Virus record (IMG/VR): IMGVR_UViG_3300032245_000931
Coordinates: 1-37,017 of that record
DNA length: 37,017 bases
Source of the DNA: a virus
Strand: one strand, 5' to 3'
Shown here in pieces: positions 446 through 33,394 of the stretch (position 1 is its first letter; every line of letters starts with the position of its first letter). Under the pieces are notes generated by a model, which searched no databases, had not been told where the DNA came from, and worked only from the letters and a program-made list of their open reading frames with translations. The position numbers and the translations under genes were made by a program.

Positions 446-1273
446 ATGGGAAGCACAAAAGTACAAGCACCCCCTCCAAGGGATTATTATAAAGAAATGA
501 CGGATACAATTACGGCACAAATTGATATGGCTCCTTTGTTGCTTGAAAATGAGCGTAAACTTGTTCCACAATGGCAAAACCTGCAAATGGAGCAGATGCG
601 TAGCCAAGCAGATAATTTAAAAACATTTTACGGAGAAGTTATGGACCCATTTGCAAAACTTGCTGGAGATTATGCAAATAGTATGGGTAAATACGCTATG
701 GAACCATTGGGCGTATCAACAAGAAAAGCCTATGAATCATCTTTGGGCGGAGGTCAAGAACTACAAAACATTATGCGTCAGCAAGCAGTTTCAGATTTAA
801 ATGCTGGAACATCATTAACACAAGAAATGCAAAGAATGGCACAACAAGCGTCTCGCTCTGCTTCTACCGCTAGAGGTTTAACAAATTCAAATTTAGGAAT
901 TGCCGATGAAGTTTTAAATTCTTATAACTTGGGTCTTCAAAGACAGAACCTTGCAAGAACATTTGCAACTACTGTGCTTGGAAATGATATGAGCATTTCT
1001 GGAAATGCTTATAATCAATACGGCTCTCCAATGATGGCAGGTATGATGCAAGGTTTTAGTCCTACAGGAATTGCAACTAGTGCTTTAGGTCTTAATCAAA
1101 CCCTTGGACCACAATATTTAAAACCAGAATCTCAATATGCTAGCAATATTTATCAAAGCAATTATAACGCTGATTTACAAGCAAGAGTTGCTACTGCACA
1201 AAATAATGCAGGTGTTATTGGTGGTGCTATGAGTATGTTTGGGAATATTGCTAAAGGATATGGGGGAAAATAG
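446..1273 (+). CDS. gp14-like internal virion/tail protein, zero-frame product
   Basis: 275-residue protein rich in Gln, Ala, Met and Gly, with a helical N-terminal half (residues 20-120) and a low-complexity C-terminal half rich in Asn, Gly, Tyr and Met. It lies first in a gp14-gp15-gp16-like series, so a role as a small internal core or ejection protein is inferred from order and composition, not from a catalytic motif. Translation ends at TAG 1271-1273. The stop immediately follows a G GGA AAA heptamer, and the -1 frame stays open for 30 more codons to TAA 1360-1362, overlapping the next start by 8 bases. A longer minor form is therefore likely (see the frameshift entry). No Shine-Dalgarno is visible before the ATG; the upstream bases are AT-rich. 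Confidence 0.8.
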   Translation: MGSTKVQAPPPRDYYKEMTDTITAQIDMAPLLLENERKLVPQWQNLQMEQMRSQADNLKTFYGEVMDPFAKLAGDYANSMGKYAMEPLGVSTRKAYESSLGGGQELQNIMRQQAVSDLNAGTSLTQEMQRMAQQASRSASTARGLTNSNLGIADEVLNSYNLGLQRQNLARTFATTVLGNDMSISGNAYNQYGSPMMAGMMQGFSPTGIATSALGLNQTLGPQYLKPESQYASNIYQSNYNADLQARVATAQNNAGVIGGAMSMFGNIAKGYGGK

Positions 1274-1304
1274 GAAGCCCAGCAACAGGGGCTAATGCTG
1301 TTGC
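1264..1304 (+). promoter_or_regulatory. Programmed -1 ribosomal frameshift signal with pseudoknot
   Basis: The heptamer GGGAAAA at 1264-1270 is in the X XXY YYZ register (G GGA AAA) of the gp14-like gene and is followed at once by UAG. After a 5-nt spacer (1271-1275), bases 1276-1280 (AGCCC) pair with 1289-1293 (GGGCT). The loop bases 1282-1288 (GCAACAG) pair with 1298-1304 (CTGTTGC). This is a classic H-type pseudoknot: stem 1 of 5 bp, stem 2 of 7 bp, a 1-nt first loop and a 4-nt last loop, which fit the grooves they must cross. Shifted ribosomes would add 30 residues after the lysine (beginning IGSPATGANA) and stop at 1360-1362, giving 446..1362. The main alternative is a homopolymer error in the G5A4 run. 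Confidence 0.8.
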
Positions 1305-1312
1305 AAACCCAA

Positions 1313-1341
1313 TTGGTTTAGAATCTCAAGTTTTTTATAAT
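1313..1341 (+). promoter_or_regulatory. Possible internal sigma-70-type promoter
   Basis: TTGGTT at 1313-1318 and TATAAT at 1336-1341 are separated by exactly 17 bp, so transcription would start about 7 bases before the ATG at 1355. In such AT-rich DNA the match could be chance, and the same bases encode the frameshift extension of the upstream protein. Confidence 0.3.
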
Positions 1342-1354
1342 AACTATAATAATT

Positions 1355-3229
1355 ATGCCTAATCCTTTTACACAATATCAAGGGGAACAAGTTCCTCAAA
1401 TTAATATTCTTCCTTATACACAAGGAATAGCAGACAGTCTTCAAAGAGGAATGTCCGACCTTGGTAGTTCTATTGGTAGCGTTATTGATAAATATAAACA
1501 AGAACAAAAGATGAAGGAAACTGTTACTCCTTTGCTTATTGATGAAACATCAAAATATATAAAAAGAGATGATAAAGGAAAAGAATCGTTAGATGAAACA
1601 GCACCAATTTACATTAAAAACTTTTATGACAATGCAATAAAAGAAGGTGATAAAGATGGATGGCTTAATGGTGCAATGAGAATACCTGCTTCAGCAACTA
1701 ATACTGCTTATGCAACTCATTTAGAAAGCCAAAAAAATCTTGAACTTCAATATAAATTAAATGAATTAAGAAGAAATGAAGAGTCTGCTCAGTTTTTACA
1801 AGAAGTAGCCAGACAGGATGTTCCAACAAGTGAAATTTCTGAATATCCACAAAAATCTGAAGTTGGATTATTGTATAATCCAGCAACAGGAAAAGGTACT
1901 AATGTTGGAAAAAAAGAAGATTTAATAAAAGAATTAGGAATAGATACTAGTCAAATTTTTACAGAAGAACAATACAATCAATTTAAAGAAAAAAATACAA
2001 TTAAACCAGAAGACATAATTGCTATGTCTGTTACTGGTAATCCAAATTTTTCAACTAATGTAAGATTTCAAGACTTATCAGCAGAAAGAGATAAAAACGG
2101 AAATACAGGTGCTTTTAAATTAGTAAATTCAGTTTATGAAACATTGTTATCAAATGGATACCCACAAGATAAATTAGATTCTGTATTTAAGGTTCCAACA
2201 AAAAAAGGCGGAACTGGTGTTACTTCAGATGTTCAAGTTAATGAACAAACATTTAACAAGGCTGTTCAATTACTAAAAAGTCCAAGTTTACAACAAGCAT
2301 ATAAAAATAAGGGAATAAACGCAGAAGCAGTTTTACCTGCTAATGCTGAAAATAAATGGATTTATTCTCCTGTTGGTGCTGGAGAGGAAATTGTTAAAAA
2401 AGAAAGACAACTTCAAGATTTTGAAATTTCAAATAAAAGATATGATGTAGTTGCATCAAGATGGGCTAAAAACAACCAAAACAAATTTATTCCATCAAGA
2501 AGTCTTATTATGAAGACTCTTGGATTTAATGAATTGCCAACATATATGCTTCCAAATGGTCAAAAAGTTGTTCAAATTGGAAACTCAGTTATGACTCAAG
2601 AAGCATTATCTAGAAATATGGATTTAAATCAAGGTGTTATTGGAACAATCGATGGAAAAGAAGGTAAATCTAGAAAAGAAATTCAAGAAGAAAAAATGTT
2701 TCAATTTGGAGATGTTGATAGTAGGGGAAATTGGACTCCTGATGAACCTTATAAAGGTTCTGGTGTTAAGGTCTGGGGATATATTACTGGAGATAAAGAC
2801 AGAGTTGGAAAGATTAGAGACAGACTTAAAAATGACGCTGAAGCAATTTATATTCTTGAAAATGAAATTATACCTGCTTTTGATAGTTTATCTAATCAAT
2901 TTAGTCCATCAAAAGTTGGTAAATTAGCACCTTCAGTTACAAAATTAACGCAATTGATGAGACCACTAATTCTTGGAACTTCTGTTGGAGGTCAATCTGA
3001 CCTTGAGTTTAAAACACTTATGGACAAAGTACCAAACCCAACAGAATTTAGCATAAATACTAATTTTGGTAGTCATAAAGCAAATGCAATTGAACTTCTT
3101 AACAAGATTAAAAGAAGTGCTGAAGCAAACGCTACTGATGGAGGATACACTATACAAATTGCCACAGGAGGAAAACAACCTTCAAAAAAATCACAAGAAT
3201 TTAACAGTCAATTAAGACAAAATAAATAA
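1355..3229 (+). CDS. gp15-like internal virion protein
   Basis: 624 residues, mostly charged and predicted helical, with no signal peptide or clear membrane segment. Position between the gp14-like gene and the giant gp16-like gene, and length close to T7 gp15 (about 750 residues), suggest a structural partner in the DNA-ejection conduit; I see no enzymatic motif. Residues 516-520 read FSPSK, a pentapeptide that also occurs three times in the giant protein that follows, which suggests a shared processing or interaction signal. The ATG overlaps the stop of the -1 frameshift extension of the upstream gene (ATGCCTAA), indicating coupling. The next gene starts 3 bases after its stop. Arg is almost always AGA. 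Structural role inferred from synteny. Confidence 0.75.
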   Translation: MPNPFTQYQGEQVPQINILPYTQGIADSLQRGMSDLGSSIGSVIDKYKQEQKMKETVTPLLIDETSKYIKRDDKGKESLDETAPIYIKNFYDNAIKEGDKDGWLNGAMRIPASATNTAYATHLESQKNLELQYKLNELRRNEESAQFLQEVARQDVPTSEISEYPQKSEVGLLYNPATGKGTNVGKKEDLIKELGIDTSQIFTEEQYNQFKEKNTIKPEDIIAMSVTGNPNFSTNVRFQDLSAERDKNGNTGAFKLVNSVYETLLSNGYPQDKLDSVFKVPTKKGGTGVTSDVQVNEQTFNKAVQLLKSPSLQQAYKNKGINAEAVLPANAENKWIYSPVGAGEEIVKKERQLQDFEISNKRYDVVASRWAKNNQNKFIPSRSLIMKTLGFNELPTYMLPNGQKVVQIGNSVMTQEALSRNMDLNQGVIGTIDGKEGKSRKEIQEEKMFQFGDVDSRGNWTPDEPYKGSGVKVWGYITGDKDRVGKIRDRLKNDAEAIYILENEIIPAFDSLSNQFSPSKVGKLAPSVTKLTQLMRPLILGTSVGGQSDLEFKTLMDKVPNPTEFSINTNFGSHKANAIELLNKIKRSAEANATDGGYTIQIATGGKQPSKKSQEFNSQLRQNK

Positions 3230-3232
3230 TTT

Positions 3233-6200
3233 ATGGATAATGTTGTAAGATATTCTAGCAAAGAAGAATACGAAAAAGCAATGCAATCAAAAGGATTGCT
3301 TTCTTCAAATTCTGAAAATTTGTCTAATCCAGACATTCCTCTTTCTGAGGCTGAAAACGAACCAGAATTAAGTAATGATGAAAAAGGTCAATTAATTGCA
3401 GAATCAATTAAAGAAGGGTTTGTTCCTTCATTTGAAAATGCAATGTTATATAAACAATGGAAAGACAAACAAGAGATAAATGCGTGGCAAGATGCTGGTA
3501 ATGCTTTTACTCACACTGTTGGTGCATTAACAGAAGGTGCTTATGAGTTAACAAAAGACGCTGTAACATTTAAACCACATAAAGTTTTAGGAAGTTTAAT
3601 TGAAGGTGCTGGATTGGGAACTAAAAATTGGTTATATATGTACGAAGAGGCTAAATACGATGAACACTCTTGGTTACATAAAATGCTTTTTGATACACAC
3701 GCAAACGACCAAGAATATTATTGGAATTTAAAACAAAGTATTGAAACGCAAAAAATGATTAAAAAAGATGCTGAAGAAGGCATCTGGATTCCTCCAAAAA
3801 TTACTATTGGAGGAATGGATTTAGATTTAACAAATCCATCTGTTGTTCAAGCGGTAAGTTTTGTTGCAGACCCTTCTTGGCTTATGCCAAATTTGGGAAT
3901 TGAATCAACAATAGCAAAATCATTAAGAGGTCTTTCAAAATCAATTAGTCTTGGAGAACAACTTACAAAGGCTAGTTTTTATGCAAATGGAAAACTTGCT
4001 AAGATTTTTGGAAGTTTAGAAACAGTAGCATCAAAAACAGTAAACACTATTGAAAAAGCAGAAGGGTCTATAGTTAAAACATTAGCAGATATTACAGGAA
4101 CAGATGCACAATTAACTGCTGGAGGAAGGGTTTTATGGAAAGATACTATGTTTAGAGGTGCTGTTGAACCAGTTGGATTAAATAAACCTATAGCAGTTTT
4201 TTCTCCTGTTTGGGCGTTAACTCAATCTATTTGGGGTGTAACAAAAGGTGCTGAATTTTTAGCAAAAACTTCAAAGGAAGCGTTTCAACTAGCAAGTAAA
4301 GGTTCTGAAATTGCAGGAATGCGTTTATCTGAAAGACTTGCAATGGAATCTGAAAGTAAAACAGTTCAATGGCTTTCAACAAGTTGGAGTAAAACAGCAT
4401 CACCTTTTTTGTCTTATGTTAAAGACACTACAAAAACAGCATTACATTCTGCAATGTATGGTGGTGCATTTGGTCTTGTGTTTGGTGGAGAGGAAGGATT
4501 TTACAATGGACTTGGAACTGGATTTGCTTTGGGTGGAGCATTTCACCATATTGGATTAATTCACGGAGCAGTTGCAGGTTCAAAGGCTATTCCAGATACT
4601 ATTAAAAACTTTCTTTGGTCTACAAGTGGAATGGATTATTACAATCAAGAAGGACTTGCACACTTGTTAGATTCTGTTGAAAAGAGCGATGGAGTTAATG
4701 CAAAATTAAGATTAATGTCAGAAATTTCTGCAATTGAGCGTCTTGGTCGTGGAGACAGAAGAGTTTACTACAGAGAGGAAACTATTAAAAGAATGCTTTC
4801 TGAAAGCCCAGAGGCTTGGGCTGGTTATGAAAAATTGTTAGCAGACCCAGACTGGGGAGGTGTTGCTTTTCACAAAGATTCAACAGGTGAAAACTATACA
4901 ATTATTAATGTAGATAGAGCATCAAAGTCTGCGGTTAAGGCTGAATTTTTCCATACTATGCTTTTAAACAGTAGATATGGAAGTTCTTTTATAAAGGCTG
5001 GAGTAGATGCTTTAATTGGAACACCAGAAAACAAAGGTGCTTTATTTTCAATGCCAAAAGAAGATTCTGTTAGATTGCTAGAATCTTTCAGAGATAGTTA
5101 TCTTAAACTTGATTCTACAACAAAAATTGCATCTGGAGAACAACAAATTAAACTTAAAAAAGAATTTGATGATTCTATTAATAAATTTAAAAGAGGTGAA
5201 TATTCAGAACACTTAAGTTCTTTATTTGAAGAATTTCTTGAATCTTATTGGAACAGATTTATTGAAGAAAAACCTATTGATTATCTTTTAAACGGAGGAG
5301 ATTTGGGAGTTGTTAGAAATACAATTGAACTAGGAAAATCTGTTTACAGAGATATTATGTATAAAGATTTAACTAGTGCTGGTGCTAATTTTAATTGGGG
5401 TCAAAATCCAGACCATTTCTTTATTGAACAAAATACAAAACAAAGAATTAGAATTCCTGCTTTAGAAAAATTAATGAAGCATTATGTAAAAGAAGTTTCC
5501 AAAGAAAGATATAAAGGATGGAAAAGAAATGCAACAATGCATAACGATGTTGGACTTGCATTAACTAGCGGTCTTGGACATAATTTTTCAACTGAATCTG
5601 GAAATGCTGTTTTAGTAGCAGGTACTGAACAATATAATGCTTCTCATTCTAATTCTGTTATTTCTGCTATTGATGAAATTCAAAAAACAATTCCAAAACA
5701 AGAGCGTGGTTTGACATTTACAGTAATTGGTGGAAAAGAAGGCTCTGAAGAGGCTTTTAGATTTTCACCTTCTAAAAAGAAGAAAGAAAAACCTTCTAAA
5801 GAAGAAAAAATATCTTTTACTCAATTAGAAAAACTTAGAAAACTTGCAGAAAAAGCAGGTTCAAAAAAAGCAAATATTAAAAATGAAAATATTTCAGAAT
5901 TAGAATCTCAAACAGGAGAGCCAGTTTTAGAAGGAGATTCAGATGGAATTGGATGGAAAAATGTTGTAGGTAAAGATGGATTTTGGAGAAGCGAATGGGA
6001 TGGAAAAGCAAGAATTAAAATTACAGGAATTGCTGGACAAAAAGAACTTCAAGTTTTAGCAAAATGGCTACCAAGAGATGTTGTAAAAACATTTGCTCAA
6101 TTAAATGGTGTTATTGAATTATCAAAGTTTCAATCTAATTCTAGTGTTTCAAATGTTTTAAGTGCCAGCGTTTTGACAAAAACAAAAGAAGTTGAATATG

Positions 6201-9200
6201 GTGGTAAAAGAAAAGTTGCAAAAGGGAAAAACTTTTTTGTTGGAAACAGAACATTTGTTCCTGTAGAAATTAATCTTACATTTGAAAGAACCAAAGATAG
6301 AGTAGAAGATGGTGAAATTTTTTGGAATGTTGGAGATGCAAAACTTATTGCAACTGTTATTGATATGGATGCTTTATCTACTCGTATTAATTATGCTTGG
6401 AATGATATAAAAGAAAGAGGAGGTATTAATTATAAAAGAGTAAGACAACTTTTTGGTTCAAAACAAAATGTTGAAATTGCCATTAGAAGACTTTTAGAAA
6501 ATTATAGTAAAGGTCAAAAGGCTGAGGCTGGTGCAGAAATATTTAGGGGTGAAGAGGGTTCAATTAGAGAGGCTAGAGATAAAAGAGATATTATTAACGC
6601 AATAATTGGATTTCACCCAACAAAGAAAATGTTAAGTGGTGGTTCTAGGTTGTTTGAATCTTCTGGTGGTCATTTGCCAATGTCATTTCAAAAAAGAACT
6701 GAAACACACGCACTTGGACTTCCTACTGTTATGACAGGTTTTAGGGTTGATAGAGTATCTAGTGTTAAACAAATCCCACTAGAAGGATTTAGGTATAATC
6801 ACGACAATGCATATGTAAGGTCGCAATACAATTTTTCACCTTCTAAATTTGCTCGTGACCACGAAGGAAATAATTTAAATGCAGGTATTGAGCCAATACT
6901 TTCTAGTTCTGTTTATAGAAACAAAGAAGGTGAATTAATGGCTGTTTATGGATTAGAAAAACATAATTCAGTTAGAACTGTTAATCCAATAGAAGGAGTG
7001 CATCAATATGTTGATGATTCACTTGGTGATATGTTTGATAAAATCAATCCTACACTTAGAGGTGGAAGTTATGAATCTGAAAGCGGATGGTTACATTTTA
7101 CTCCAGATGGTGCAGAGGCTGGAATTCACACAGAACAAAGACTTGTTACTGGACACATTGACACACAAAATCATATAGATATTTCTCAATTAGATGCACA
7201 ATCTTCAGTTATTGATGTTGTTGATAAACTTTCTGAACGAATTTCAAGTTTAACTGGTGAACCAGTAGCATCTATTAGGAATGAACTTTTTGATGTTGAA
7301 ACAGATTTTGGAACAATTGGTGATATGTATAGGGGCAGTATAGATAAAACTTGGGACTTACCAAGTGTTATGCTTGAAAGTTGGTTGTTTACAAAAAGCA
7401 CAATTCCTTATTTTAAAAGCAAAGGAATTCATTCTATTGAATATAATTCGTTAAATTTATTAAACGGAAATGAGTTTTCTTCTATTGCAATTTTTAACGG
7501 AGAAAGATTTATTGAAAATCGTGCAAATTCAAACAATGCACAAAACTTTTCGTTTTCTCCATCTAAACCATTACCAAAAATATTAACAGAGAAAATTTCA
7601 AAATCTTCAGATGTTGGTAGTTTATTTCTTGATTATGTTATAAATAAAGACGGAGAATATGTTCCAAATCTTAAAAAAATAACAAGCAACGATATTCAGC
7701 GTATTATTGATAGTCGTTTTAATGAACTTATTTCTGCACAACAAAGAGTAGATAAATCACATCCTTTTTCTGCTGGACAAAGACAAAAGTATATTGAAAT
7801 TTTAACTCCGTATGTTTATCAATCTTTAAGAAAAGAATTTCCTTTTGCACCTAGAAACATTTTAGAAAAGATAACAAAATTATCTTTAGAAGGATATAAA
7901 ATTGATAGAGTAGTTGGAAAAGGTGTTGGTCAAAAATTAATAATTAGAGATTCTTTGTTTATTAATGAGGCTAAAAGATATGGAATTACTGGTGAAAGAA
8001 TTAAAAAGACTGGAATTCCGTCTCTTGGTCATTGGGCTGAAATGACAGAAAAAGAAGTAGAAATGTTTAGAATTCATAAACAAGTTGAAGAAATATCAAA
8101 AAGACAAGGAGAAAAAAATGTTCCAAGTTTAGTTGATTTTCTTTCAAAATTAGAAAACCGTGAGTATCTTGAAGGTGTATTAAGAAACAACGGATGGTCT
8201 GGATTTATTAATGAACTTGGAAATAGGTCTAAGGAACTTGTATTTATTGCAGATTCTGGTATTTCAAGAAGAAGACCAATTGATTCTGGAAGGGAAGTTC
8301 CAATTGTTTTAGATACTAAAAAATTAAAAGAATATTTTGCAATTAAAACAAACGCATTTGTTCAAGATACTTTAAATAAAAATAAATTAAATTTAAAACA
8401 AAGAAGTGCATTACTTGATATTAAAAAAGGATATGAGGACATTATGTCAGTAAAACTTCTTGAATCTATTGGAAATAAAGATTCTCAATTTCAATTAGAA
8501 CAAACTGAACTTCAAAATATTTACGAAAGTTATACAAGGACAATTGAAGATATTGTATCTCAAGAGGCTAAAAATAGAATTGATGATATGTTGACTGCAT
8601 ATCAAATTGAAAATATTGATGAAGAAACTGTTAAAAAAGTAAGAACTGGTTTATACGATTTGGCTAATCGTGGCTTGGTTAAACTAGGTACTCCAGAAGC
8701 AATACAAAAGTCTGTAGAGTTGTATGCAGAATTAAGCCAAGAAAATACCAGAAAAGTAATCGAATTACAAAACTCTATTAACAGAAATTATGTTAACTCA
8801 CTTAAATCTATGGAACAAAAAGGGTTCTTTGGAGTTATGTGGTCAGAGGTTAAACCAGTTAGTGGAAACACAATTACTCACAGATTTCCTAATGGTGCAG
8901 AAATTAGTGGTTATAGAATGTGGAAATGGGATGGTAGTGGATACTATATTGTAGAAAACCACACATCAAGCGAACAGGTTAGTGGCTATGAATCAATTTC
9001 AAAAAGGCTGTTTAATAAACCTTTTGATGGAAAAACTAGAGAAGAAGTTAGATTAAATACAAAACGATTAGAACTATATGACCCAAAAGGTAATTTAGTT
9101 TATACAGGAAGTTATGATTTAAATGTTGTTGAAAACGGAACAAAAAGATTAGCAACTGAATCAGAAATATCTAATCAAATTGATATTTTTAAAAGACTTT

Positions 9201-12200
9201 GTACAAAAGTAATGGATGATAATACTGTTTCTCAAAGTATTTTTAGTGACCATTTTGTTGTCAGTGGAGATTCAAAAGATTTTATTTTAGCAAGTTTAAT
9301 TCAAGACTTAAAAGAATTTGACCCTGCTTTGTTGGCAAGAATTGGGGATTATAAACAAGTTGAATCTAAAGAATTAATAAAACTTAAAAATGAATCTAAA
9401 GAAATTCTTTCTACTCAAGAAGGTTTTTTTGAACTTAGTAGTCCTTTTGATTTTTCTAGTTTTGATTTATATAGCAAAGATGGAATTTATTTATTAATTA
9501 AAAGAAACGACAAAGCAGATACAGAATTTACTGCATTTAACAGAACTTATAAAACAATTGCAACTGGTAAAAATTTTAAAGTTGTAACCAATATTGTTAA
9601 AAAGGCTGGAGGAACTGTTGCAGATAGAATTAAGAAAATAGATGAAATCTTAAAATCTAATGTTATTAAAGAAAACGGAAAACAAAGATGGTTAACACAA
9701 GACGAAAAAATTTTGTTAAGAGAAAAAATGGCTGATTATAAGGCTGTTCAATATTTAGATACTGGAATTGTTTTTCATTTTGATGATAAATTAAATATTG
9801 TTGTTCCAGAAGAAGGAAGAAATCTTGGTACTGTTCAACAAAGAATTGATGCTTTGAAAAAACTTAGAAACAAAGGATGGGAACATTCTATGTTTGCTGA
9901 ATCAATTAAAGATATTTATTCTAAATTTAGAACTCATTTAGAAAAAACAGTTATACCTAAAAATAATAAAAGAATTGAAATGGTAAAATCTCAAACAAAA
10001 GAAGGTAATGTTTCAAAAATTAGAACATTGCTTTCTCAGTTAAACAAAGTTGAAGAAGGATGGAAGGGTCATTTTAAAGAACAAACTGATTTAATTAATG
10101 CTGAAAGGTCAAAGAAAAATGAACCACCATTAAGTGCTATTGAGATATATCAACAAATTAAAGAAAACAGAAAAAATAATAAACAAAGAATTCTTGATTT
10201 AGAAAATAAAAGAACTGTTTTAATGCAAAGACTTATTGAAAAAGGATTGCTTGAAGGATGGGATTCTAGAAGTGCAGAAGAACAAGCAAGCCAATATGAA
10301 AGATACCAAATGCTTGAAGAAAATGGTTATGTAAAAAGGCTTGGTCTTTTGCCTACATTTGAAGCAACAACAATTGAATGGATTCAAAACACTAAAAATG
10401 ATATTTTTCAAACAGAACAAGAAATAGTAAAATCAACTGAAAAAGAAAATAAATTTAAAGAAATTATTGATACTAGAAAAAAAGACACATCACAAATTGA
10501 AACTAAAATTATTTTTCTAGTAGACCAACTTTCTAGGGCTTATGGATATAAATTTAAACAAAAAGATTTAATTAAATTTGTTAATAAAGAAGTTTTAGAA
10601 ACAACTTTAGTAAAAGATAAATCTGGTGAAGAAATTGATGGTTTAAGAAAAACTATAGTTAACTTTGATAAATTAAAAGAAAAATTCTTTGCTAAGAAAA
10701 AATTGTCTTTGCCAGAATATCTTCCAGACACAGAAGGATTAACAACTGGAAAGGTTGCTGGAGAAGTTACCAGTGGAAGACCAGAAATTATTGATTCAGT
10801 AGAAAAATACACAGAAGCATTTAAACAAGGTATTCTTCAAGTTAGAGATAGGTGGATGAACGCAAACAACAAAGAAGATTTAAATTTATCTTTTGTTTTA
10901 TCTGAAGGAAGGGCTTATTTGGATGCAAAACCAGATACTGAAGTTACTTTTTCATTAAAATCTAGAGATATTATAAACGAAAACAATTTTTCTACAAAAG
11001 ACCTTCAATGGATTTCTTCTCCAGAAAATCAAGTTATTGTTAAAGAATTAGAAAATCAATGGAAAGCAAACCAGATTACTGACTCCGAATTTATTGAAAA
11101 GTTAAAAGAAAAAAGAGAACTTTCTGGTTTAGACAAAGATAGTGTTAATTTAATTTTAACAAGCAGAGAGATAACAAGAACTAATAATGAAATTGGTAGC
11201 ATTTATAATGAACTTTCTTTGCCATCTTTAAACATTTCAGAAACAAGAAGAGAAGAATTAAATAAAAGATTAAAAGTTTTAAATTCTAGAAAAGAATCTT
11301 TGGAAGCAAGAAAAGAAACAATTATGAATTTAGCAGAACTTGGTTCTGGTTCTAGAAATGTAAGTGAATCATTTATTAATTTAGTAGAAAAAGAAAAACA
11401 AATTAAAAAGAATGCTGAAGTTATTAAAAGAAATATGGATGAAAGAGGTAAAGAAATTGAAGAATGGAGAAACAGGTGGAAAGAAGATAGCGAAAAATTA
11501 TTCCAAAAGTATGACGAACTTGCTAAAAGATTAGGATTTTCTAGTTCAAGAATACCTGTTAAGGCTTCTGATGTATATGCACACGGATTAATGTTGGCTT
11601 TTCCTACATTAACTCACGACTTTTTTGTAAGTACACCAGAACTATATTGGGGAAGTACATTTTATGGAAATGATGAATTAAACTCTGGTTATACAACTGG
11701 AAGTGGAATTGGAAATAGAGGTGGTTCTGAGTGGAGTTCTACACCTGCTAATTATACATTAATGACAGAAAAAGAAGTTGGTAAATATAGAAAGGTTTAT
11801 ATTGCAGATTATTTACATAGAATTTCTCAATGGAGAGATGATTTCTTTGCACCAGAAAATATAGGCAAACAGTTAACTGCTGAAAAAGCACTTGCACTTG
11901 AATCTGTTTTTCCAGAATTATTAAACAATCCTTTTTATTTAGAAAAGAGAAAGGCTGTATCTAATGAAAAAATTGATAGGGTAATGAAGTTATCTCAAGG
12001 AATTAGAGATATATTTGTATCAAAAAATGAACAAGATAGTTTTATAAAAGCGTTTGTATTAGAAGGTGTTTCTTTAATTTATGGAGAAAAAGAAATGAGG
12101 GAAGGTGCTTATAAGAAATTAAAAGGATTAAGTGATGAACAATTTGAAAAACTTAAAGCAGAAACAGACCCAAAATTGTTTGAAAAAATGCTTACTAGTA

Positions 12201-13750
12201 AGGAAATATTTGAACAGGTTTTATATTTAATTGCACAAAAAACTGAAAATAGAATTTATTTAAAACAGGATTCTCCTCATAACATTAAGTTTAATAAAAA
12301 AACAAATACTCCAACTTCTGGAGGAAAACCGTTTTTAACTTCAAAATACGGTCTTCCAGTAGAAACATTAATTAGAATGGACGGATTTGACAGAATGTGG
12401 GAAGAGCAAACAAGAAGACTGGGTTCATCTTTTTCAGATACACCTTTGTTAAAAAAGGCATATGAACAAGTTCCACTTGTTGACAGGTTTTCATTACCAA
12501 CATCAAGAGTTAATCAAATTATGTTGGAAAATGAGGCTGGTATGATGCAAAGACAAACAGATAATGTTAAAAGAAGGTTAAACGAAAGTAAGCCATATTG
12601 GGGTGAACAATTTGCACCAGAAGTCGAAAACGAACTTCAAAGAATTGAGCGTTATATTAATCAAGTAAATATGGTTGATTCTTCATTTAGAAGATTTAAA
12701 GACAATGTTATTTCGTTTATTAAAAACAGACCAAAGGCTGTAAGAGAAATTCTTTCTGTTAATTTTGATGGTCTTGCTTTTCAAAGTTTAGATTTTTCTG
12801 ACAAAACAATGGGCAACTGGAGAGAATCCAACGATGGAAGATTTATTATTAAAAAAGAAGCAGATGATAAATTTAAAGTATATTTTGTAGGTGAATCTGT
12901 TTTTAACGCATATGATGGAGAGGGTGGAAGAAATAAAATTTTAGATATTCCAACAACTGAAATTGGTATTGTTTCTGATTTAGACCAAGCAAGAATACTT
13001 GCTAGATTCTTTAATGATGATGTAAGCAGAGTTAAACACGCCTGTCTTATGGTTAAAGGAGGAGGTGAATTTAACCCTTGGAATGTTTTGGGTATTCCAT
13101 TACCTGCAACGCAAGAAGGAAGAATTATTCCAGACACTAAATTTATGAGTGATTACGCAAGTGCTATTGTTGATTTATATGAAAAAAATTCTGGTTCTTC
13201 AGATTTTAAAGAAGAAATGTTAAAAAGATTTAAAGAAATTGGTCAATATGGAGAACCGCAATGGGTAAGTTTTTGGACATCTGATGGACAAAATCCAAGA
13301 ATTGAATCAAAAAGAATTATCATAACTCCATCAAAAGAAGTAGAACTTGGAAAGACCCATAAACAAGGATTTAATGACAAAGGAGAGAAGGTTTGGATTC
13401 CAATTGATGAACAACCAAAAGTAGAAACACAGTCTAACAATGAGTCTAATGCTGATGTTAATACTCCAGAAAACCCAGAACCTACAAAAGAAGACAATGA
13501 AATAAAAGATGTTACAACATTTGATATTATTTCAAATTATCCTTCTACAGAAAATCAAGTTTTCAAGGAATGGGGAACATTAAGAAACAAATTAGGTTAT
13601 ACTATTATTAAAATTAAAACAGATAACAAAACAAATGCATATAGACTATTTAATCCTGCTTCTGGTTTTATGGGTGCATTTTGGAGTGAACAAGAGGCTG
13701 TTGATGAAATTCTAAAATCTAAAAATAAAGAAAATGTAAATAAACAATGA
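3233..13750 (+). CDS. Giant gp16-like internal virion megaprotein, modular
   Basis: 3,505 residues in one unbroken frame, over a quarter of the genome. Residues about 400-445 are Gly/Ala/Phe-rich and hydrophobic, suiting membrane insertion during ejection. FSPSK occurs at 844-848, 1201-1205 and 1441-1445, always at apparent domain borders. The module between the second and third looks like a degenerate ADP-ribosyltransferase (HFTPDGAEAG near 1288, GIHSIEY near 1398, then SSIAIFNGERF). Around 570, AEFFHTML in a helical context resembles a peptidase region that has lost its HExxH. Residues about 2100-2450 and 2600-2750 are coiled-coil-like. The far C-terminus has a small beta module ending near FWSEQEAVDEIL. 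Like T7 gp16 it is last of the ejection series, but it lacks the N-terminal transglycosylase. The holin start overlaps its stop (ATGA). It could also carry tail or receptor functions missing elsewhere. Confidence 0.85.
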   Translation: MDNVVRYSSKEEYEKAMQSKGLLSSNSENLSNPDIPLSEAENEPELSNDEKGQLIAESIKEGFVPSFENAMLYKQWKDKQEINAWQDAGNAFTHTVGALTEGAYELTKDAVTFKPHKVLGSLIEGAGLGTKNWLYMYEEAKYDEHSWLHKMLFDTHANDQEYYWNLKQSIETQKMIKKDAEEGIWIPPKITIGGMDLDLTNPSVVQAVSFVADPSWLMPNLGIESTIAKSLRGLSKSISLGEQLTKASFYANGKLAKIFGSLETVASKTVNTIEKAEGSIVKTLADITGTDAQLTAGGRVLWKDTMFRGAVEPVGLNKPIAVFSPVWALTQSIWGVTKGAEFLAKTSKEAFQLASKGSEIAGMRLSERLAMESESKTVQWLSTSWSKTASPFLSYVKDTTKTALHSAMYGGAFGLVFGGEEGFYNGLGTGFALGGAFHHIGLIHGAVAGSKAIPDTIKNFLWSTSGMDYYNQEGLAHLLDSVEKSDGVNAKLRLMSEISAIERLGRGDRRVYYREETIKRMLSESPEAWAGYEKLLADPDWGGVAFHKDSTGENYTIINVDRASKSAVKAEFFHTMLLNSRYGSSFIKAGVDALIGTPENKGALFSMPKEDSVRLLESFRDSYLKLDSTTKIASGEQQIKLKKEFDDSINKFKRGEYSEHLSSLFEEFLESYWNRFIEEKPIDYLLNGGDLGVVRNTIELGKSVYRDIMYKDLTSAGANFNWGQNPDHFFIEQNTKQRIRIPALEKLMKHYVKEVSKERYKGWKRNATMHNDVGLALTSGLGHNFSTESGNAVLVAGTEQYNASHSNSVISAIDEIQKTIPKQERGLTFTVIGGKEGSEEAFRFSPSKKKKEKPSKEEKISFTQLEKLRKLAEKAGSKKANIKNENISELESQTGEPVLEGDSDGIGWKNVVGKDGFWRSEWDGKARIKITGIAGQKELQVLAKWLPRDVVKTFAQLNGVIELSKFQSNSSVSNVLSASVLTKTKEVEYGGKRKVAKGKNFFVGNRTFVPVEINLTFERTKDRVEDGEIFWNVGDAKLIATVIDMDALSTRINYAWNDIKERGGINYKRVRQLFGSKQNVEIAIRRLLENYSKGQKAEAGAEIFRGEEGSIREARDKRDIINAIIGFHPTKKMLSGGSRLFESSGGHLPMSFQKRTETHALGLPTVMTGFRVDRVSSVKQIPLEGFRYNHDNAYVRSQYNFSPSKFARDHEGNNLNAGIEPILSSSVYRNKEGELMAVYGLEKHNSVRTVNPIEGVHQYVDDSLGDMFDKINPTLRGGSYESESGWLHFTPDGAEAGIHTEQRLVTGHIDTQNHIDISQLDAQSSVIDVVDKLSERISSLTGEPVASIRNELFDVETDFGTIGDMYRGSIDKTWDLPSVMLESWLFTKSTIPYFKSKGIHSIEYNSLNLLNGNEFSSIAIFNGERFIENRANSNNAQNFSFSPSKPLPKILTEKISKSSDVGSLFLDYVINKDGEYVPNLKKITSNDIQRIIDSRFNELISAQQRVDKSHPFSAGQRQKYIEILTPYVYQSLRKEFPFAPRNILEKITKLSLEGYKIDRVVGKGVGQKLIIRDSLFINEAKRYGITGERIKKTGIPSLGHWAEMTEKEVEMFRIHKQVEEISKRQGEKNVPSLVDFLSKLENREYLEGVLRNNGWSGFINELGNRSKELVFIADSGISRRRPIDSGREVPIVLDTKKLKEYFAIKTNAFVQDTLNKNKLNLKQRSALLDIKKGYEDIMSVKLLESIGNKDSQFQLEQTELQNIYESYTRTIEDIVSQEAKNRIDDMLTAYQIENIDEETVKKVRTGLYDLANRGLVKLGTPEAIQKSVELYAELSQENTRKVIELQNSINRNYVNSLKSMEQKGFFGVMWSEVKPVSGNTITHRFPNGAEISGYRMWKWDGSGYYIVENHTSSEQVSGYESISKRLFNKPFDGKTREEVRLNTKRLELYDPKGNLVYTGSYDLNVVENGTKRLATESEISNQIDIFKRLCTKVMDDNTVSQSIFSDHFVVSGDSKDFILASLIQDLKEFDPALLARIGDYKQVESKELIKLKNESKEILSTQEGFFELSSPFDFSSFDLYSKDGIYLLIKRNDKADTEFTAFNRTYKTIATGKNFKVVTNIVKKAGGTVADRIKKIDEILKSNVIKENGKQRWLTQDEKILLREKMADYKAVQYLDTGIVFHFDDKLNIVVPEEGRNLGTVQQRIDALKKLRNKGWEHSMFAESIKDIYSKFRTHLEKTVIPKNNKRIEMVKSQTKEGNVSKIRTLLSQLNKVEEGWKGHFKEQTDLINAERSKKNEPPLSAIEIYQQIKENRKNNKQRILDLENKRTVLMQRLIEKGLLEGWDSRSAEEQASQYERYQMLEENGYVKRLGLLPTFEATTIEWIQNTKNDIFQTEQEIVKSTEKENKFKEIIDTRKKDTSQIETKIIFLVDQLSRAYGYKFKQKDLIKFVNKEVLETTLVKDKSGEEIDGLRKTIVNFDKLKEKFFAKKKLSLPEYLPDTEGLTTGKVAGEVTSGRPEIIDSVEKYTEAFKQGILQVRDRWMNANNKEDLNLSFVLSEGRAYLDAKPDTEVTFSLKSRDIINENNFSTKDLQWISSPENQVIVKELENQWKANQITDSEFIEKLKEKRELSGLDKDSVNLILTSREITRTNNEIGSIYNELSLPSLNISETRREELNKRLKVLNSRKESLEARKETIMNLAELGSGSRNVSESFINLVEKEKQIKKNAEVIKRNMDERGKEIEEWRNRWKEDSEKLFQKYDELAKRLGFSSSRIPVKASDVYAHGLMLAFPTLTHDFFVSTPELYWGSTFYGNDELNSGYTTGSGIGNRGGSEWSSTPANYTLMTEKEVGKYRKVYIADYLHRISQWRDDFFAPENIGKQLTAEKALALESVFPELLNNPFYLEKRKAVSNEKIDRVMKLSQGIRDIFVSKNEQDSFIKAFVLEGVSLIYGEKEMREGAYKKLKGLSDEQFEKLKAETDPKLFEKMLTSKEIFEQVLYLIAQKTENRIYLKQDSPHNIKFNKKTNTPTSGGKPFLTSKYGLPVETLIRMDGFDRMWEEQTRRLGSSFSDTPLLKKAYEQVPLVDRFSLPTSRVNQIMLENEAGMMQRQTDNVKRRLNESKPYWGEQFAPEVENELQRIERYINQVNMVDSSFRRFKDNVISFIKNRPKAVREILSVNFDGLAFQSLDFSDKTMGNWRESNDGRFIIKKEADDKFKVYFVGESVFNAYDGEGGRNKILDIPTTEIGIVSDLDQARILARFFNDDVSRVKHACLMVKGGGEFNPWNVLGIPLPATQEGRIIPDTKFMSDYASAIVDLYEKNSGSSDFKEEMLKRFKEIGQYGEPQWVSFWTSDGQNPRIESKRIIITPSKEVELGKTHKQGFNDKGEKVWIPIDEQPKVETQSNNESNADVNTPENPEPTKEDNEIKDVTTFDIISNYPSTENQVFKEWGTLRNKLGYTIIKIKTDNKTNAYRLFNPASGFMGAFWSEQEAVDEILKSKNKENVNKQ

Positions 13751-14052
13751 ACTCTACTGACCCAGATTTAATCGGAGCAATCCAAGACTTTAAGAAAGGA
13801 GGCTGGGTTATTGCTCTGCTTGGGTCTTTAGGTATGTTTGCTAGATTGGTATTAACGGAGGAAAAATATAGTTTCTTTGTATGGCTCAGAAAGATTGTTG
13901 CTGGTGGGATTGTAGGGGTGCTGGCTTACTTTGCACTATACGGAACAGATATAGCCCCTATCTATAAGAGCGTTATTTATAGTATCTCTGGCTCGCTTGC
14001 CCCAGAGATTTGGGAATTCATTAGACGCAAGTTTAAGAAGGAAGCAAAATGA
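13747..14052 (+). CDS. Holin, LydA/phage holin 3 superfamily-like
   Basis: 101 residues with three likely membrane segments (about 19-37, 49-66, 73-93) and a Lys/Arg-rich tail ending RRKFKKEAK. The opening KKGGWVIALLGSLGMFARL matches the Gly-Gly-Trp plus LLGxLGMxARL signature I know from LydA-type holins. It would form the inner-membrane lesion that ends infection and releases the endolysin. The ATG overlaps the TGA of the giant virion gene (ATGA), and its own TGA overlaps the ATG of the next gene in the same way, so the three are translationally coupled at the end of the late operon. Base composition is visibly less AT-rich than the giant gene. The transglycosylase it would serve is on the other strand at 16038..16532. 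Confidence 0.8.
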   Translation: MNSTDPDLIGAIQDFKKGGWVIALLGSLGMFARLVLTEEKYSFFVWLRKIVAGGIVGVLAYFALYGTDIAPIYKSVIYSISGSLAPEIWEFIRRKFKKEAK

Positions 14053-33311: not shown

Positions 33312-33361
33312 TTTACCTTTTATACCTGTAAATTTAACAGTTTCTTAGTTCTGCAAAAACT

Positions 33362-33394
33362 ATGACCAAAAAAGGCACTTTAGACCTTATCTAA
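33362..33394 (+). CDS. Possible 10-residue leader peptide of the scaffold gene
   Basis: ATG 33362 encodes MTKKGTLDLI and stops at TAA 33392-33394, which overlaps the scaffold ATG (TAATG). This is the same overlap used between many real genes here, so it may couple scaffold translation. Too short to prove by sequence. Confidence 0.35.
   Translation: MTKKGTLDLI

Follow-up and report, generated by a model that had tools for sequence, protein, structure and literature searches.

A candidate programmed −1 ribosomal frameshift site in the first gene of an ejection-like operon of an uncultured phage

The 37,017 bases of the window analyzed here make up a single viral record. It derives from an uncultured short-tailed phage whose genes include those for a large terminase and for a major capsid protein of the SU10 type. 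In this window, the gene at positions 446–1273 stops well short of the next gene, and an open −1 frame runs across the space between them. The question raised by this locus is whether some ribosomes enter the −1 frame by programmed frameshifting or whether the break between the two frames has another origin. The whole case is built on this single uncultured viral contig.

The gene at 446–1273 and its 3′ junction

The features of the junction are as follows.

446–1273, plus strand: 0-frame gene in the gp14 position; 275 aa, mostly helical by prediction (low-confidence model)
1264–1270, plus strand: slippery heptamer G_GGA_AAA in the correct 0-frame register
1271–1273, plus strand: 0-frame stop codon TAG, directly 3′ of the heptamer
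1271–1275, plus strand: 5-nt spacer between the heptamer and the pseudoknot pattern, read from the sequence
1276–1280, plus strand: 5′ arm of stem 1, AGCCC; pairs with 1289–1293
1282–1288, plus strand: 5′ arm of stem 2, GCAACAG; pairs with 1298–1304
1289–1293, plus strand: 3′ arm of stem 1, GGGCT; pairs with 1276–1280
1298–1304, plus strand: 3′ arm of stem 2, CTGTTGC; pairs with 1282–1288
1270–1362, plus strand: −1 frame extension, IGSPATGANAVANPIGLESQVFYNNYNNYA; 30 codons plus TAA (1360–1362), predicted product of 305 aa
1355–3229, plus strand: next gene, gp15-like by position; 624 aa, shares 8 bases with the −1 extension

The last codons of the 446–1273 gene are GGG (1262–1264), GGA (1265–1267), AAA (1268–1270), and TAG (1271–1273), which places the heptamer in the X_XXY_YYZ register. 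The two stems downstream of it form an H-type pattern of 5 plus 7 bp at the level of sequence, in which all 12 pairs are Watson-Crick and 8 are G-C. Loop L1 is A1281, L3 consists of 1294–1297 (AATG), and no nucleotide lies between the stems. The 5-nt spacing falls within the range of 5 to 8 nt downstream of the heptamer at which stimulatory structures generally begin (PMC4066793). Between 1255 and 1362 the −1 frame stays open; it runs over the ATG of the next gene at 1355 with an overlap of 8 bases, and 81 nt separate this gene from the end of the 0 frame. In the predicted long form, Lys275 would be joined to Ile276, and the extension includes IGSPATGANAVANPIGLESQ. A first-pass annotation had described the register, the TAG, the spacer, the pseudoknot coordinates, the complete Watson-Crick pairing of the stems, and the −1 frame of 30 codons with its overlap and gap, and all of these were exact on a direct reading of the sequence.

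The codon log-odds score of the extension was +24.9 bits in the −1 frame, compared with −15.5 and −21.1 bits in the other two frames. For 28-codon reference segments, the mean score was 18.5 bits in known genes and −9.6 and −12.5 bits off frame, and none of the 640 off-frame segments scored at least 24.9 bits. From this score and the abnormal 81-nt gap that the frame fills, it follows that the −1 frame of the extension region encodes protein or did so until very recently. The earlier proposal that the extension turns the gap into coding sequence is thus backed by codon usage. The extension is rich in Gly, Ala, Asn, and Tyr and follows just after the core, whose end is Gly-rich. Readthrough of the TAG was rejected: although the next gene lies in the same frame and the 0 frame reaches it by way of two TAG codons, this frame scores negatively for codon usage beyond the TAG, and with regard to TAG recoding, ARAGORN found one tRNA only, Arg-TCT.

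The 446–1273 gene is the first of three consecutive genes of rising size, whose products have 275, 624, and 3505 aa. This row matches the gene order gp14, gp15, and gp16, and the same junction is found in relatives, some of which have an inserted gene. The ejection operon gp14/gp15/gp16 of podoviruses has the order small, medium, large (PMC8954989), which is common to both; however, the podovirus ejection proteins have no detectable sequence or fold match to the window genes, and the third protein of the window is far larger than T7 gp16 (1318 aa). Pfam and PHROG searches with the 275-aa protein gave no family match, and its comparison with PDB sequences gave weak matches only. The fold model of this protein was poor (mean pLDDT 51), with two structure predictions of too low quality, and a fold search with the model retrieved no solved relative, the matches being uncharacterised phage proteins only. 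The earlier designation "gp14-like" goes back to the gene order (small, medium, giant) and to predicted helices; the searches of Pfam, PHROG, and PDB gave no convincing relative, by family, sequence, or fold. We describe the product as being in the gp14 position.

For the giant ORF of the 3505-aa protein (3233–13750), third in this ejection-like operon, matches to PHROG families were marginal and those to Pfam absent, and a scan with the protein found nothing. It is followed by a weakly holin-like gene (13747–14052). In two relatives (L004 and L021), the capsid gene lies about 5.7 kb from the gp14-position gene; measured across the two ends of the window (1 and 37017), this distance is about 2 kb, and approximately 3.7 kb, probably of tail genes, seems to be absent there. 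Another contig (L003), 93% identical to the window over 10 kb, ends at nearly the same place, ahead of the gp14-position gene. In addition, an 82-nt gap (33312–33393) lies ahead of the gene at 33394, and the alignment of the L004 homologue begins at 33328; the true start of this gene may be upstream of the annotated one.

Rarity of the pseudoknot pattern

Watson-Crick pseudoknots of at least 12 bp at the right distance occurred 6, 9, and 6 times per 20,000 dinucleotide shuffles in three local regions. When the extension was recoded synonymously, such a 12-bp pseudoknot appeared in 33 of 20,000 cases and an equally GC-rich one in 4 of 20,000. Across 1.92 million positions of related phage DNA, 75 such pseudoknots were found, 4 of them equally GC-rich, and none of the 75 had a heptamer just upstream.

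The window holds 110 in-frame heptamers, among which the context of 1264–1270 ranked first for a pseudoknot. This was also the only one that lies within 20 codons of the end of a gene and has a −1 frame passing the stop. Two other heptamers have A/T-rich 12-bp patterns behind them, presumably by chance, and their −1 frames shut within 7 codons. Because such patterns occur there too, the number of pairs does not by itself settle the matter. Nested folds of the region showed no unusual stability (z = +0.1 to −0.8), and the case therefore rests on the pseudoknot itself. The summed stacking of both stems and their junction was about −28 kcal/mol before loop costs, as an estimate only, and the best nested fold of 1276–1304 had −9.7 kcal/mol.

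The signal also draws on rare codons. The GGG at 1262 (4.5% of Gly codons) gives the first base of the heptamer, and the AGC at 1276 (9.5% of Ser codons) together with the GGG at 1288 gives bases of stem 1; one more GGG, at 1241, has no role in the signal. The heptamer is formed in 2.2% of the synonymous versions of Gly-Gly-Lys. The shuffles, the recodings, and the heptamer ranking indicate that the signal as earlier described is statistically unusual.

Relatives of the gene and the origin of the frame break

The junction could be read in 43 relatives. In each of them one uninterrupted frame encodes the gene and ends at a distance of −1 to +19 nt from the gene that follows, and neither a heptamer at the gene 3′ end nor a gap for an extension was found in any of them. 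The best relative of the gp14-position gene has 75% identity, and the C-terminal tails in the family are hypervariable in length and sequence beyond residue ~270. Given this distance and these tails, the absence of the heptamer elsewhere is compatible with a young signal and does not exclude it. The first-pass annotation had proposed to compare homologues for a conserved heptamer and covarying stems and regarded a lack of both as refuting the site. They are absent from the 43 relatives, which formally speaks against the site, with a force that is blunted by the fast-changing tail. Nothing of the signal is conserved in these relatives. Closer relatives were also sought with the gp14-position query and alignment and among bacterial genomes and named phages, and none of the sequences retrieved carried the extension, although near-identical records may be missing from what was searched. 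A query consisting of the extension and the start of the next gene likewise retrieved no relative with the extension, and a degenerate DNA pattern search gave two matches, both unrelated. Since natural 0-frame counterparts of 273–275 aa exist (L034, L015, and L010), the predicted 275-aa short form is plausibly functional.

A gene with a PAPS-reductase domain lies within the presumed ejection operon, between the gp14- and gp15-position genes, in L012 (17703–18503), L019, L060, L099, L100, and L116; that of L012 codes for 266 aa (PF01507, E = 5e-12). The gp14-position protein is longer (346–359 aa) in L007, L061, L062, and L112, which have in common an in-frame C-terminal module of the type FAxYIxxKPxxKxxxxxxMD; no Pfam match to this module was obtained in the three that were scanned (L007, L062, and L112). 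One 88-kb contig, IMGVR_UViG_3300010970_000150 (L007 and L087), carries two gp14-position genes that are 39% and 63% identical to that of the window, suggesting a chimera or two joined phages.

The site is probably a lineage-specific programmed −1 ribosomal frameshift, with a predicted main form of 275 aa and a minor form of 305 aa. An assembly or sequencing error could also have separated the frames, if a base was dropped at or close to the G5A4 run of a gene that is really one plain frame of ~305 aa. The single-frame gene of all 43 relatives, ending at the next gene, and the position of the junction on a G/A run agree with such an error. Several relatives also have similar N/Y-rich tails in frame (ending in NNFYNS in L087, NNFYNA in L095, and NNYSNFA in L043), a likeness that is weak evidence because N/Y-rich ends are cheap in A/T-rich DNA. 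Nevertheless, we consider the error unlikely: a missing base explains the frame break but leaves the pseudoknot, its right distance, and its rare codons unexplained. Moreover, the other comparable genes of the window have no frame breaks against the relatives, and no relative protein matches in two frames, despite many longer homopolymers, with runs of as many as 8 A or 7 G. A real one-base deletion in the phage genome might instead have truncated the gene and left the −1 tail as a young relic that is not usefully translated. The natural 0-frame products of 273–275 aa and the variable tails, which make the tail dispensable in the family, are in line with this origin, but the pseudoknot and the rare codons become a coincidence, and the coding signature of the extension is undamaged up to its stop; a deletion thus appears quite improbable.

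It is very improbable that the stems are hairpins with another job, such as next-gene initiation or RNA processing, and that the heptamer is incidental. The stems lie 51–79 nt upstream of the next start codon, as such a role would allow, but an Rfam search gave no family match above chance, relatives with the same next gene have almost no intergenic room for such a structure, and the coding extension is left unexplained. The stem-1 hairpin was also rejected as a terminator; it is a terminator-like match on the minus strand, whereas the genes here are on the plus strand. Transcriptional slippage on G5A4, by which a base is added to some mRNAs and the frames are joined, has hardly any probability. 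The G-then-A run does span the junction, but slippage gives the pseudoknot no role, and in bacteria it mostly requires longer runs of a single base (~9).

Proposed mechanism and known frameshift systems

In the programmed frameshift proposed here, the majority of ribosomes would end at the TAG and release the short protein. The pseudoknot would pause some ribosomes with tRNA-Gly on GGA and tRNA-Lys on AAA, and these tRNAs could re-pair one base back, on GGG and AAA. The shifted ribosomes would then read 30 more codons to the TAA at 1360–1362 and produce the minor 305-aa form. We infer the folding of the pseudoknot, the shift itself, its yield, and the role of the long form from the sequence. 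The motif G_GG.A_AA.A was reported to be inefficient in E. coli (Sharma et al., PMC4066793), and the frameshift yield is therefore probably low. The same motif occurs in bacterial insertion sequences, and a pseudoknot strongly raises the yield (PMC4066793). The word "textbook", as the site had been called, suits eukaryotic viral sites better than bacterial ones in view of the inefficiency reported for E. coli (PMC4066793), although insertion sequences do use the motif. Some IS1/IS3-family sites share the heptamer, and an IS3 pseudoknot is a proven stimulator (PMC4066793); the long product of insertion sequences is a transposase, unlike that of the window phage gene.

The earlier statement that frameshifting is established for tail-assembly chaperones proved too narrow, since phage coat and tail proteins also use it, with frameshifted C-terminal extensions known for T7/T3 gene 10, for phage A2 of Lactobacillus, and for the Listeria phages A118 and PSA (PMC5009743). 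As proposed here, T7/T3 gene 10 (10A/10B), a virion gene of podoviruses, undergoes a −1 shift close to its end and yields a minor C-terminally extended form (PMC5009743). On the other hand, gene 10 encodes the major capsid protein, whereas the gene studied here is a small one of the virion module; T7 slips on a heptamer of the G_GU type, not on G_GGA_AAA; and stimulation in T7/T3 involves sequence >200 nt downstream, whereas here it would come from an adjacent H-type pseudoknot. Frameshifts of tail-assembly chaperones are conserved across long-tailed phages and their products are absent from virions, whereas the window phage has a podovirus-type gene order and its site is not conserved. The slippery site of lambda gpG/gpGT is G_GGA_AAG. 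Lambda gpG/gpGT and other tail-assembly chaperones resemble the present case in having a −1 heptamer near the gene end, and their long product is a small fraction (PMC5009743). In a limited literature search we came across no ejection protein for which frameshifting had been described, and a review of these proteins does not mention it (PMC8954989).

Most simply, long subunits would be mixed with short ones in a ring or stack, as in T7 10A/10B. More tentatively, a signal that arose de novo in this lineage may provide two forms of a small ejection protein, a few subunits with the 30-residue tail being placed among the short ones, where they might dock the next protein or set the stoichiometry.

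The site would be a well-known trick in an unexpected gene and a further member of its kind from a new gene class. If it is real, an ejection-type protein joins the phage virion proteins that use frameshifting, and the signal arose in one lineage while relatives encode a tail in frame. It would then be possible to test what a two-form ejection protein does and in what proportions its forms occur, and the family would offer a natural comparison, in which the same gene has short, long, and frameshifted tails.
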